From assembly GCA_016777565.1 (NCBI GenBank), contig JADHRF010000007.1, forward strand, positions 1 to 35,840: a DNA stretch of 35,840 nucleotides, given 5' to 3'. Of this stretch, positions 31,707-34,982 are shown in pieces. Position 1 is the first letter of the stretch, and every line of letters begins with the position of its first letter. The notes beneath the pieces are model-generated. The model worked only from the letters and a program-made list of their open reading frames with translations. It was not told the DNA's origin and searched no databases. The DNA comes from Pelagibacteraceae bacterium (GTDB lineage: Bacteria; Pseudomonadota; Alphaproteobacteria; Pelagibacterales; Pelagibacteraceae). A program made the translations under genes and the position numbers.

Positions 31707-33206
31707 TTATTTAAATTTGTTTACTTCTTTATTTATTTTTCTAAAATCAAAAATCTTTTCTTTCTTATTAAAGAAAAAAATAACAATCATTGGTACAAAT
31801 GTTGCTAGAGCAAAAGACCAGAAAAGAAGTGCTGTAGATATCCAGCCTGGAAAATAATTTGTAGGTAGAATATTTCCAATTAATATACTTTTTTCAAAAG
31901 TTTGATTTGGAAATAAAGCTAAACCTGATATTAAACCAGTTGTTACAGAATAAAGACCTAATTTTTTTGAAATATTTTTGTTAAACATTCCGTAGAAAAT
32001 CGTAAATGCAGCCGCGCAACACAGTAAGTCAGCAAATAAAAACATAAAAAGTACACTGAAGCCTTTTGATGCAATGGCAAATACTATTGTAGATAAAATT
32101 ATAACCAAAAAGTAAGAAAACTTCCTTAAAGTCCTTGGTGTTAGTTTAAAGAATTTACCTCCATTAATTATAAAAAGACTCGATATAGCATTTATCAAAG
32201 TGTCCATGCTGCTTACAACAAGTGAAATCGCAAGAACTAATACTGATATTGTCAATATAGAATTAGACCCTGTCATAGGATTTAAGATTAAGGAAAAGAA
32301 AATAGTGCTAGGATCCTTAGCATTCCCAGTTATTACCGCAAGTATTCCAAAAAAGCCTAAAATAAAAAGGAAGGGTAATACTATAAAAAAAGCAGAGGTA
32401 AAACCTACAACTAGGTCTTTATTGCTTTTTGCGGAATAAACTCTTTGCCAAATACCTTGATCAAATAAGTTTGTAGCAAACACAGCAATAAAAAAAGTTA
32501 AACCAGCAGTATAACCATAAAAATATTTTCCACTAACTAATGTTCCTGCTTTTTCTTTGATCAACTCAATTGAAAAAGAGTTAGTTTCTATGTTGAAAAT
32601 TTGATTTATAATTATAATTAAAAAAAATAAAATTATAACAAACTGAAATTTATCTGTAAAAATTGAAGCTCTTAAGCCACCATAAAGTGTATAACTAAGT
32701 GTTGTAATTATTATTAGTAAAGATGTTTGCCATAGAGGAAAACCTGAAATTAAATTAGTAATTTTTGCAATCGCAGTTACTTCGGCGCATAAATACACAA
32801 ACATATAAAAGATACTCAGAGCAAGAACTAACTTGAACATTGCTTCCCCAAATCTTATTAAAACAAATTGTGTTAAGCTATTGCCATCAGGCATTATTTT
32901 TCTCATTCTTTTACCAATTATAATAAATGCAAGGAATGGAACAGCTTGACCAAACGCATAACCTATTACGGCACCTAATCCGCCCCAGGTTGCTGCCTCT
33001 GATGGACCTATTAGGATCCAGACTCCAAAACATGAAGCTGTTAGAGAAGCTGTTAATGATTTTCTGCCGATAGATCTATCTGCTGCTAAATATGAAGAAA
33101 TTGATATTTTTCCTTTTGAGAAAAAAAAACCTATAGCTGCAAAAATAGTGGTGGTTAATAGTAATGTTGTTATTGTTGCTGTTTGACTTAAATAAAACGT
33201 GCTCAT
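31707..33206 (-). CDS. thiV: Sodium:solute symporter under TPP control, probable HMP transporter ThiV
   Basis: A 499-residue polytopic transporter of the SSS family with about 13 membrane segments. It begins with an N-terminal helix, then AADRSIGRKSLTAS and TASCFGVWILIGPSEAATWGGLGA, the SSS helix-1/2 region. A TPP riboswitch sits directly in front of it. SSS transporters with this regulation in SAR11 have been named ThiV and linked to uptake of the thiamine pyrimidine precursor HMP (recalled from the literature). I infer the same here. Thiamine itself is the main alternative substrate. The ATG is fixed by the riboswitch-borne Shine-Dalgarno GGGAG 5 nt upstream. Confidence 0.88.
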   Translation of the reverse strand: MSTFYLSQTATITTLLLTTTIFAAIGFFFSKGKISISSYLAADRSIGRKSLTASLTASCFGVWILIGPSEAATWGGLGAVIGYAFGQAVPFLAFIIIGKRMRKIMPDGNSLTQFVLIRFGEAMFKLVLALSIFYMFVYLCAEVTAIAKITNLISGFPLWQTSLLIIITTLSYTLYGGLRASIFTDKFQFVIILFFLIIIINQIFNIETNSFSIELIKEKAGTLVSGKYFYGYTAGLTFFIAVFATNLFDQGIWQRVYSAKSNKDLVVGFTSAFFIVLPFLFILGFFGILAVITGNAKDPSTIFFSLILNPMTGSNSILTISVLVLAISLVVSSMDTLINAISSLFIINGGKFFKLTPRTLRKFSYFLVIILSTIVFAIASKGFSVLFMFLFADLLCCAAAFTIFYGMFNKNISKKLGLYSVTTGLISGLALFPNQTFEKSILIGNILPTNYFPGWISTALLFWSFALATFVPMIVIFFFNKKEKIFDFRKINKEVNKFK

Positions 33207-33208
33207 TT

Positions 33209-33277
33209 AATCTCCCTTCGTTGTAATTACACAACAGGTTCATTGGGTATATTCTCAGCTGTTAAGCACCCCAGAAT
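33209..33277 (-). promoter_or_regulatory. TPP riboswitch (THI element)
   Basis: On the minus strand the conserved TPP aptamer blocks appear in order: GGGGTGC (33266-33272), GCTGAGA pyrimidine-sensing turn, ACCC, TGAACCTG, a short GTTGT/ACAAC stem, TAAT, and CGAAGGGAGA (about 33211-33220). P3 is minimal (GCT-TAAC-AGC). The 3' P1 strand GGGAG lies 5 nt before the symporter ATG, so ligand binding should directly hide the ribosome-binding site; no separate expression platform or terminator fits. Confidence 0.93.
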
Positions 33278-33289
33278 CTGATTAACTCT

Positions 33290-33317
33290 TTTATAATTTA
33301 TTATTTATTAAAGTCAA
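33290..33317 (-). promoter_or_regulatory. Promoter of the TPP-riboswitch / symporter unit
   Basis: Minus-strand TTGACT (33312-33317), 16-bp AT-only spacer, TATAAA (33290-33295). The predicted start (about 33283) falls just ahead of the aptamer, and the -35 begins 3 bp after the umuC stop. It gives the symporter transcription independent of umuDC. Confidence 0.6.
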
Positions 33318-33319
33318 TT

Positions 33320-34609
33320 TTAAATTTTTAGCATAGGCAGATTGTTAAATGAAGCCGTGTCAATTTTTGAAAAATGTTCTCTTCTCATTTTCCAACTATT
33401 GTTCGTTCCTGCTTGAGCTATGCTAATAGAATTTCTACCATATTTTATATTTGTTTGATCTATCGCCTTCATGAGTACTTTTGATTTTGTTTCTAATAGA
33501 GGTGCTAATAAGTTAAACTCTTCTTTTTTAGCCTCTGTTAATTGACTCAGTATTATTCCAGATTTTTGATAAAAATAACCATATTTATATATTGTTTTAA
33601 GCGCTTCTGTGGCTGCGTTTATTAACTCAATACTATTGTTGGTGGCTATAGGTAAATCAATAGTTTTAGAATTAGAATAATATTCTTTGTGTCTATCAAA
33701 AGGGCTAGTTCTAATAAAAACCGTTATTGATTTAGTTACCTGGTCGTCTCCTCTAATTTTTTCTGCTGCAGAAAGGCAGTGTGTTGTTATAGATTCTTTT
33801 AACTTATCTAAACTCTCAATTTTTTTTCCAAATGATCTCGATACACAACAACTTTTTCTTTTAGTTTCTAATGTTTCTAAATTTACACAAGATATACCTC
33901 GTAATTCCATAACTGTTTTCGCACCCAAAACATTTGTACTTTTTTTAACCCAAGTGTTAGAAATATTCTTTAATTTATAAGCGGTATCAACATTATTTTT
34001 TATATACAGTTTTGAGAGTTGTTTTCCTACACCCCATACATTAGAAATGTGAAATTTTTTTAATTCTTCATCTGTATCTTTATCGTTATCTAAAACTTTT
34101 ACACCTGCTTTGTTTTTCTTGGCTATATAATTTGCCACTTTACTTAATGTCTTAGTGTTTGCTATTCCAATACTAGTTGGAATGCTTGTCCACTTTAAAA
34201 TTCTTTCTCTTATTTCTTTTCCATATTCTTCAAGTCTTTGATCCTCAATAAAAGACAAACTTAAAAAAGCTTCATCAATTGAATACACTTCCATTTTATC
34301 AGAAAATTCTTTTAGTATTTTCATAACTCTTCTAGAAATATCTCCATACAAAGCATAATTTGAAGAAAAAATATAAACTTTATTTTTCTTAACTAAATTT
34401 TTAACTTTAAAATAAGGCTCACCCATTTTAATGCCGATTTGTTTTGCTTCGGTTGATCTTGAAATTACACACCCATCATTATTTGAAAGTACGACAACTG
34501 GTTTATTTATTATTTTAGGATTAAATAATCTTTCACAAGAAACGTAAAAAGAATTACAATCAATTAAAGCAATAGTATTTTTTTTTCTACTGTAGTTTGT
34601 GTATGACAT
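33320..34609 (-). CDS. umuC: Y-family DNA polymerase V catalytic subunit UmuC
   Basis: A 429-residue translesion polymerase. IALIDCNSFYVSCERLFNP at the N-terminus, SNNDGCVISRS and VYSIDEAFLSL (the catalytic Asp-Glu pair, about 112-113) are intact; HhH and little-finger regions follow, with a UmuC-type C-terminus. The frame is open from a TTG at 34618, but the ATG at 34609 has a GGGGGG sequence 9 nt upstream and gives the expected N-terminus, so I use it. It overlaps the umuD end by 23 bp, so the two are co-expressed from the LexA-controlled promoter. Confidence 0.95.
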   Translation of the reverse strand: MSYTNYSRKKNTIALIDCNSFYVSCERLFNPKIINKPVVVLSNNDGCVISRSTEAKQIGIKMGEPYFKVKNLVKKNKVYIFSSNYALYGDISRRVMKILKEFSDKMEVYSIDEAFLSLSFIEDQRLEEYGKEIRERILKWTSIPTSIGIANTKTLSKVANYIAKKNKAGVKVLDNDKDTDEELKKFHISNVWGVGKQLSKLYIKNNVDTAYKLKNISNTWVKKSTNVLGAKTVMELRGISCVNLETLETKRKSCCVSRSFGKKIESLDKLKESITTHCLSAAEKIRGDDQVTKSITVFIRTSPFDRHKEYYSNSKTIDLPIATNNSIELINAATEALKTIYKYGYFYQKSGIILSQLTEAKKEEFNLLAPLLETKSKVLMKAIDQTNIKYGRNSISIAQAGTNNSWKMRREHFSKIDTASFNNLPMLKI

Positions 34610-34982
34610 AAGTAACAACCCCCCAAATTACAACTTCTTGATTTTCATCTAAATTAATTTTGTTGTTAATATCTTTTGACCCAGAAGTAAGATAACTAAT
34701 TTCTTTTTCCTTGATGAATGTTTTTACAACTAGTTCTTCGTTAACATTAGCTATTACTGTTGAAAAAGTTTTTGGATTAATGCTTTTATCTACAATCAAC
34801 AAATCACCATCATAGATCCCGACGTCTCTCATTGATTTGCCCTGCACTCTTATTATAAAGGTTGCCGGTGCATTGTTTATTAGATGTGTGTTTAAATCTA
34901 AATCATCCTCTATATAATCCGTTGCTGGAGAAGGGAAACCAGCTCCTGCTTTGTGTAAGTAAAATGGTATTGTTAGTTTCAT
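34587..34982 (-). CDS. umuD: UmuD, S24-family self-cleaving SOS mutagenesis protein
   Basis: A 131-residue LexA-like protein. After RecA-stimulated self-cleavage it forms UmuD' and joins UmuC in polymerase V. The cleavage site is AG|F-type: A14-G15 in GAGFPSP. The catalytic Ser50 (VQGKSM) and Lys87 (LVVKTF) are 37 residues apart, the same spacing as S60/K97 of E. coli UmuD. The N-terminal arm before the site is about 10 residues shorter than in E. coli. The ATG lies 3 bp from a LexA box, leaving no room for a normal Shine-Dalgarno. Confidence 0.95.
   Translation of the reverse strand: MKLTIPFYLHKAGAGFPSPATDYIEDDLDLNTHLINNAPATFIIRVQGKSMRDVGIYDGDLLIVDKSINPKTFSTVIANVNEELVVKTFIKEKEISYLTSGSKDINNKINLDENQEVVIWGVVTYVIHKLQ

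Follow-up and report, generated by a model that had tools for sequence, protein, structure and literature searches.

A probable TPP-lineage riboswitch of the direct type, with half of its pyrophosphate pocket lost, precedes thiV in a Pelagibacteraceae genome

The thiV-like gene of a Pelagibacteraceae bacterium is preceded by a riboswitch of the TPP lineage, which belongs to the direct type and has lost half of its pyrophosphate pocket. It lies on the minus strand of the window, the whole stretch of 35,840 nucleotides that was analysed, which is one contig of a genome of 69 contigs (86.5% complete, 6.75% contaminated). The element is homologous to the TPP aptamer and sits between umuC, which ends at 33320, and thiV; the start codon lies close to the aptamer throughout the order, and J4/5 is half deleted. 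We regard it as probable that this cis-acting element of TPP descent lowers the translation of ThiV, a symporter of the HMP/thiamin type, where we infer the ligand, the direction of control and the translational level. SAR11 bacteria are among the most abundant marine bacterial groups. A riboswitch upstream of SAR11 thiV and its overlap with the ribosome-binding site are already known; the part which looks new is the erosion of J4/5.

Passages of Meyer 2009 (PMC2704228) describe a TPP riboswitch upstream of the SAR11_0811 transporter and state that RNAs of that organism tend to be short. According to passages of PMC11452348, a putative TPP riboswitch is found before ThiV in all SAR11 phylogroups, ThiV is the likely HMP symporter, and the studied SAR11 strains depend on external HMP. 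The window element is like these riboswitches in organism family, gene type and just-upstream position, the comparison being one by description only. In the literature searched, including passages of the papers on the SAR11 thiV riboswitch, no mention of a J4/5 deletion was found. The features of the window element are as follows.

31707 to 33206, minus strand: thiV-like sodium:solute symporter of 499 aa (PF00474, 54.3 bits against a cut-off of 22.8)
33208 to 33283, minus strand: TPP-type aptamer with short 5' flank (the RF00059 match extends over 33283-33196)
33212 to 33217, minus strand: AGGGAG, comprising the P4 3' strand AGG, J2/4 GA and the first P1 base; SD-like, 5 nt upstream of the ATG
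33219 to 33220, minus strand: CG, counterpart of C77-G78 (TPP pyrophosphate/metal contact), kept here (role from passages of PMC7824784 and PMC3764141)
33221 to 33234, minus strand: P5-L5 hairpin UUGU GUAAUU ACAA (cmscan); RNAfold adds a G-C pair using the C of CG
33235 to 33241, minus strand: GAACCUG, with the P4 5' strand CCUG at 33238-33235; the AU that canonically comes next is missing (cmscan)
33253 to 33257, minus strand: UGAGA, pyrimidine-binding J3-2 motif, invariant in 29 aligned relatives (role from passages of PMC3764141 and PMC9544697)
33258 to 33267, minus strand: P3 hairpin of 3 bp (GCU/AGC) with loop UAAC, P3a absent (cmscan; covariation in relatives)
33270 to 33273, minus strand: P2 5' strand UGGG, 3' strand CCCA at 33247-33244 (cmscan alignment)
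33274 to 33278, minus strand: P1 5' strand GAUUC, partner GAUUA at 33212-33208, three of five standard pairs (cmscan alignment)
33290 to 33317, minus strand: TTGACT-16-TATAAA, a possible promoter seen by eye between the end of umuC and the aptamer

The first-pass annotation had read a TPP aptamer before the transporter and proposed a covariance search as the check. The RF00059 model (1-105) aligns end to end to 33283-33196 on the minus strand with 49.0 bits and an E-value of 1.6e-8 in a scan of 701 bases, or 6.3e-9 when the own genome is the search space. The search thus supports the reading, but the score stays under the Rfam gathering cut-off of 54.3 bits, which is a curation threshold and not a biological feature. 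This is why the TPP match is absent from the whole-window scan at gathering threshold, in which two tRNAs are the only entries. Legible in the window RNA are GGGGUGC, CUGAGA, ACCC, GAACCUG, UAAU and CGAAGGGA, so that both halves of the aptamer can be recognized: the pyrimidine-binding CUGAGA motif with the P2/P3 arm, and the P4-P5 arm with AACCUG ... AGGGA and UAAU in L5. That all conserved blocks are present, as had been claimed, is true for these six blocks but not for the 5' AU of J4/5, which is deleted, for the optional P3a, which is absent, or for P3, which has 3 bp only. Compared with RF00059 as a THI element of the direct type, the window element shares the core blocks, UGAGA, the CG, the order of the arms and an RBS-like purine strand within the aptamer; it differs in the missing AU, the reduced P3/P3a, the weak P1 and the low score.

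The blocks CUGAGA, AACCU and UAAU are invariant in 29 aligned relatives, and pair 2 of P3 covaries (C-G 33, U-A 39, G-C 2, A-U 2, U-G 2 and non-standard 5 among 83 distinct cores). Pairs were counted by script, the 3' block of the MAFFT alignment A1 being misaligned between length types. P1 is poor in the window, with three of five standard pairs in the Rfam register, and nearly absent in the nearest relative, L050 (one of five, by eye). At large the canonical register of P1 is supported: it pairs at 0.59 with the own against 0.49 with swapped strands in the order (97 sequences, z 5.3) and at 0.67 against 0.46 in the class (81 sequences, z 10), in a test which scanned 40 registers and whose shuffles ignore relatedness. 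By folding energy the region does not stand out (z -0.66, a level reached by 51 of 200 shuffles), and this measure was dropped as evidence for a riboswitch. Therefore the case rests on homology, that is on the conserved core and the relatives.

These data also bear on the idea that the element is a decayed TPP aptamer without regulatory effect before a constitutively expressed gene, which agrees with the low score, the weak P1, the predicted diatom TPP aptamers that failed to act as riboswitches in passages of PMC9544697 and the seemingly constitutive transport system of PMC11452348 (passages), but is very improbable, as a relic would hold neither the invariant blocks nor the P3 covariation, and as the length types described below cluster on the thiV tree (three changes against a shuffled mean of 13.8).

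Two observations on the 5' side may be added. Twelve nucleotides, AATCAGATTCTG, 5' of GGGG (window 33268-33283) are conserved with L034, L050 and L223, in contrast to the 3' partner strand of P1. The leader and the bases before the AUG also contain a perfect UUAAUC/GAUUAA complement, from which nothing is claimed because of the AT-rich composition.

Five nucleotides separate AGGGAG (33217-33212) from the ATG of thiV at 33206-33204, just as GGGAG had been placed from the sequence. Such closeness was found throughout the order. At E <= 0.001, RF00059 has matches in 330 of 397 order genomes (above the cut-off in 15) and in 99 of 142 genomes of the class sample (above the cut-off in 94). Parsing by regex failed for five of 121 order loci and nine of 90 class loci; removal of repeats reduced the 116 parsed order loci to 111. 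All 111 have their start codon 3-9 nt downstream of AGGN (the distance in the window is 7 nt, and L100 uses TTG), and in the five unparsed ones the ATG is, by eye, equally close. L002 is even tighter than the window: AGGGAAAATG. In the 81 class loci the start codon lies within 10 nt in 35, at 11-30 nt in 12 and beyond 30 nt in 34. Starts were called at the nearest ATG/GTG/TTG that opens a frame of 60 codons or more, a rule by which near starts may be too numerous in the class sample. By eye, two of the nine unparsed class loci have a core (L132 and L149, which were not counted) and seven have none. A start codon beside the aptamer is thus a rule of the order and not an extreme. The "extreme of riboswitch compaction" that had been proposed has to be given up also because direct translation attenuation is a named class in passages of Barrick & Breaker 2007 (PMC2258182), which find it most often among TPP, preQ1 and SAM-I riboswitches. 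The window element fits this class, as its initiation region lies within the aptamer core, AGGGAG is the putative SD and no terminator is present. The direct-attenuation riboswitches for preQ1 and SAM-I described there likewise sequester the RBS in the aptamer core, but have unrelated folds and ligands.

That the aptamer strand supplies the Shine-Dalgarno sequence is borne out only in part: an SD-like GGGAG is placed properly, but AGGGA is kept for the aptamer itself and SD motifs are rare in the genome. With the strict motif at -18 to -4, thiV stands alone among 29 window genes (background 3.9%). When 20 further stretches of the own genome were added to the window, GGAG/GAGG/AGGA was found at 25 of 203 ORF starts (12.3%) and at seven of 117 unambiguous ones (6.0%), with a background of 5.7%; in 50 kb of E. 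coli, used for comparison, 14 of 33 starts have SD motifs (background 4.8%). A 16S gene was not found in the own genome, and the 16S tails of three relatives read ACCUCCUUUCU, with CCUCC kept. SD motifs are therefore near background in the own genome although the 16S tails of relatives retain CCUCC. Pairing with the SD is possible and general SD use is weak; it is safer to speak of the initiation region being occluded as a whole. Because SD motifs are scarce, occlusion need not work via SD pairing.

In the mechanism we propose, the ligand, the likeliest being TPP which the cell makes from imported HMP, would bridge the P2-P3 arm and the P4-P5 arm. In the bound state the 3' strand AGGGAG, 5 nt from the AUG, would be locked in P4 and the J2/4 tetrads and the 30S subunit blocked; in the unbound state P1, which is weak, and the P4-P5 hairpin, which is modest, would open and translation could start. 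In solved TPP riboswitches A80 is part of P4, and A56-G83 and A53-A84 form tetrads against P2 (passages of PMC3764141). Mapped onto the window, AGG (33217-33215) falls in P4 and GA (33214-33213) in J2/4, and therefore ligand binding would bury the strand. As aptamer and initiation region coincide, there would be no room for a separate expression platform, and no terminator-like site was found in 33150-33600, both points being in line with the first-pass annotation.

Its further statement that control must be by direct occlusion goes too far. The nucleotides match those buried in solved bound cores, but in the RNAfold prediction AGGGA is partly paired even in the absence of ligand (unpaired 0.50, 0.08, 0.05, 0.78 and 0.63). 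The isolated P4-P5 hairpin has -7.5 kcal/mol in the window, compared with -11.4 kcal/mol in a class sequence and -9.0 kcal/mol in an E. coli thiM segment, and it is plausible that this weaker arm would open without ligand. A CUGA/UCAG hairpin freeing the SD in the 25-nt form is not claimed, as RNAfold prefers P4-P5 in isolated segments (-3.9 and -3.7 kcal/mol); the alternative appears in a g1 segment at -2.3 kcal/mol. In favour of the proposed mechanism as a whole are the RF00059 match with intact UGAGA and kept CG, the spacing of 3-9 nt in 111/111 loci, the lack of a terminator-like site, direct attenuation as an established mode of TPP riboswitches (passages cited above), and the fit of thiV and the HMP requirement to SAR11 biology. 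Against it are the score under the cut-off, the lost 5' strand of J4/5, a P1 which is weak here and near-absent in L050, a folding energy no better than that of shuffles, the partial pairing of AGGGA in the ligand-free ensemble, the C of CG being pulled into P5 by RNAfold, and SD use near background; in addition, passages of PMC11452348 have transcription turned off and the transport system seemingly constitutive.

The same paper proposes a transcriptional shut-off and states that ligand specificity and activity need confirming. The ligand could accordingly act chiefly on transcription, Rho-dependent termination being one example, or on the decay of mRNA that has lost its ribosomes, with the start-site overlap as a by-product of the tiny intergenic space, since the short intergenic spaces of streamlined genomes bring aptamer and gene together regardless. 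We consider this quite improbable: no intrinsic terminator was found, and in 46 of 81 class loci the start codon is more than 10 nt away, so that closeness is not forced by the aptamer. The possible promoter TTGACT-16-TATAAA is absent from a consensus promoter scan of 33150-33600.

The erosion of J4/5 can be followed by length types, defined as the segment from AACCU to AGGN. In the class 72 of 81 parsed loci have a 29-nt segment, the length of the other nine being unassigned, and nearly all 29-nt loci have AU or AA after CCUG and CG ahead of the last strand. Among the 111 distinct order loci the segment has 25 nt in 71 (AU and CG both gone), 27 in eight, 26 in three and 29 in 29, shares which are biased because loci were fetched mostly from the best-scoring matches. 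In the canonical J4/5, C77 and G78 (J5-4) and G60 (J4-5) serve the pyrophosphate or its metal ions according to passages of PMC7824784 and PMC3764141, which differ as to the direct pyrophosphate contacts (C77 and G78 in the former, G78 alone in the latter). The window, which is of the 27-nt form, has kept the CG, lost the 5' AU and has ACG in place of canonical GCG, the C being paired by RNAfold. Gaps are placed by cmscan at AU and CG in three 25-nt sequences (L002, L033, L064), at AU alone in L034, like in the window, at one 5' base plus CG in L010, and within P5, not J4/5, in the 27-nt g5 sequence L009. Therefore the 27-nt forms are not all alike. G60 of CCUG is retained in every form observed.

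The pattern with a 15-nt linker, which describes the form without AU and CG, matches 261 of 397 order genomes and five of 13 genera (reversed control 3/397); this is a pattern count, and among the matches listed one (G144) is off-core. In these genomes, riboswitches with J4/5 fully deleted and P5/L5 invariant precede thiV-type genes. In the class sample the pattern matches 16 of 289 genomes, namely two of the three family members there and 14 others; the latter have, by eye, no UAAU in the linker, the reversed control matches nine genomes, and the matches outside the family look like chance. The P5/L5 sequence CCGGUAAUUCAG is invariant in 75/75 parsed 25-nt loci, with a flanking pair of U-A in 38 and A-U in 37; among the matches listed for the order pattern two read CCGAUAAUUCAG. 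In 20 representatives with less than 80% ThiV identity the four-fold sites of thiV agree to 0.46 and the N-terminal proteins to 0.585, the P5/L5 arm to 0.92. P5 and L5 are variable in class aptamers. This suggests that the frozen arm with its C-A mismatch has a specific job.

On a thiV tree of 31 SAR11 and two haloarchaeal rows, rooted for drawing only, the length types need three changes, the minimum for four groups (shuffled mean 13.8); as the tree comprises only full-length thiV loci, genus g3 is nearly absent. It groups 27 with 29 and 25 with 26, the 27-nt type forming one branch side in 70% of bootstrap trees. Since the order on the tree differs, we do not claim one stepwise loss 29-27-26-25. 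If the 29-nt form is ancestral, there were two or more reductions, or else a return to 29 nt.

It is conceivable, and we put it forward tentatively, that deletions have removed the pyrophosphate sensor from the thiV riboswitch of the SAR11 family, in part in the 27- and 26-nt forms and altogether in the 25-nt form, where J4/5 is gone and P5/L5 frozen. This would have happened stepwise or repeatedly and produced a variant class which senses an imported pyrimidine (HMP or a near relative) and not TPP, with the start codon touching the aptamer and the window as a partly reduced form. An aptamer which is no longer pyrophosphate-dependent and reads HMP, HMP-P or thiamin, the kind of compound imported by ThiV, would agree with the loss of AU in the window and of AU and CG in the 25-nt form. 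The pyrophosphate role of C77/G78 in PMC7824784 and PMC3764141 (passages) with UGAGA retained, the invariance of CCGGUAAUUCAG despite a four-fold agreement of 0.46 in the diverged representatives, and the need to confirm specificity expressed in PMC11452348 (passages) point the same way. Such a change of ligand appears unlikely all the same: the CG is kept in the window and G60 in all forms, g5 relatives of the same length have their gap in P5, canonical J4/5 before thiV in g2 and g8 (L003, L007) tells that ThiV does not need the reduced form, and a reduced pocket may just bind TPP more weakly. TPP is therefore retained as the likeliest ligand of the window aptamer, while for the fully reduced 25-nt form TPP is one candidate ligand among others. 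A thiamin precursor is also sensed by the HMP-PP riboswitch (thiS motif, passages of PMC6478431), which would be alike under a change of ligand but has another fold inside a terminator stem, and no shared sequence blocks are claimed. If many SAR11 thiV switches do read a non-TPP ligand, models of ocean vitamin B1 exchange which assume TPP feedback need revision, and the switches would be a natural example of re-tuning by deletion of half of a two-armed binding site. If TPP is still bound, they show how little pyrophosphate pocket suffices.

The symporter assignment rests on PF00474; the NCBIfam model TIGR00813 scores 71.6 bits, below its cut-off of 184. Of 18 named loci with relatives of the transporter 13 are from SAR11 (Pelagibacteraceae, Candidatus Pelagibacter, HIMB114) and five are haloarchaeal (L224, L225, L227, L228, L229; 34-37% identity), and for the latter the regex found no upstream riboswitch. 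ThiC was found in none of the 41 genomes searched, including the own one (13 of 14 control genomes positive), and a full-length PF08543 (ThiD-type) match is found in 23 of 25 genus genomes searched, own included. The proposed link of thiV to HMP is in line with these data and with passages of PMC11452348, and is kept as an inference. In family f2 none of 16 genomes has a full-length PF08543 match (three have partial or weak ones). Eight f2 loci (L011, L012, L015, L017, L019, L022, L027, L116) have a canonical 29-nt aptamer whose 3' strand now reads GGAGG; it directly precedes a similar gene for a thiamin-type binding protein in all eight as translated. For the only product tested, that of L015, TIGR01254 gives 232 bits (cut-off 93.4) and identifies a thiamin ABC binding protein, whereas its score with the stricter thiB model TIGR01276 stays under the cut-off of that model. 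HMP use and J4/5 loss are not strictly linked, because canonical J4/5 precedes thiV in g2 and g8.

The window ThiV is 86% identical to that of G398 and 59% to that of G337, both genus members, 60-61% to four from g5 and 45-47% to four other genus members; on the tree the gene groups with g5-type and g2/g8-type genes, apart from the rest of its own genus. Riboswitch and thiV may have been moved or replaced as a unit. A mis-binned window contig was considered and rejected: GlyA is 89% and 86% identical to that of two genus members, 78-80% to four others and 70-73% to seven genomes of other genera, which speaks for the assigned genus.

The same genome bin has a second TPP-type riboswitch (L002, G000:C8:782-3871) at 1501-1590 with a thiV-like gene from 1574. 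It is of the 25-nt form with the U-A flank as in genus g3, its product is 46% identical to the window ThiV, and contig C8 is perhaps a stray in the bin, likelier so than the window contig. The strand of the window riboswitch also carries, directly upstream of it at 33320-34982, a pair of the umuD-umuC type (Peptidase_S24; IMS, IMS_C, DUF4113). In L004 and L008 a canonical TPP aptamer is found directly upstream of a gene for a short-chain dehydrogenase (the L004 protein matches PF13561), and in L009 (G109, genus g5) a Gcw_chp gene (PF09694) lies between riboswitch and thiV, which starts about 700 nt downstream.
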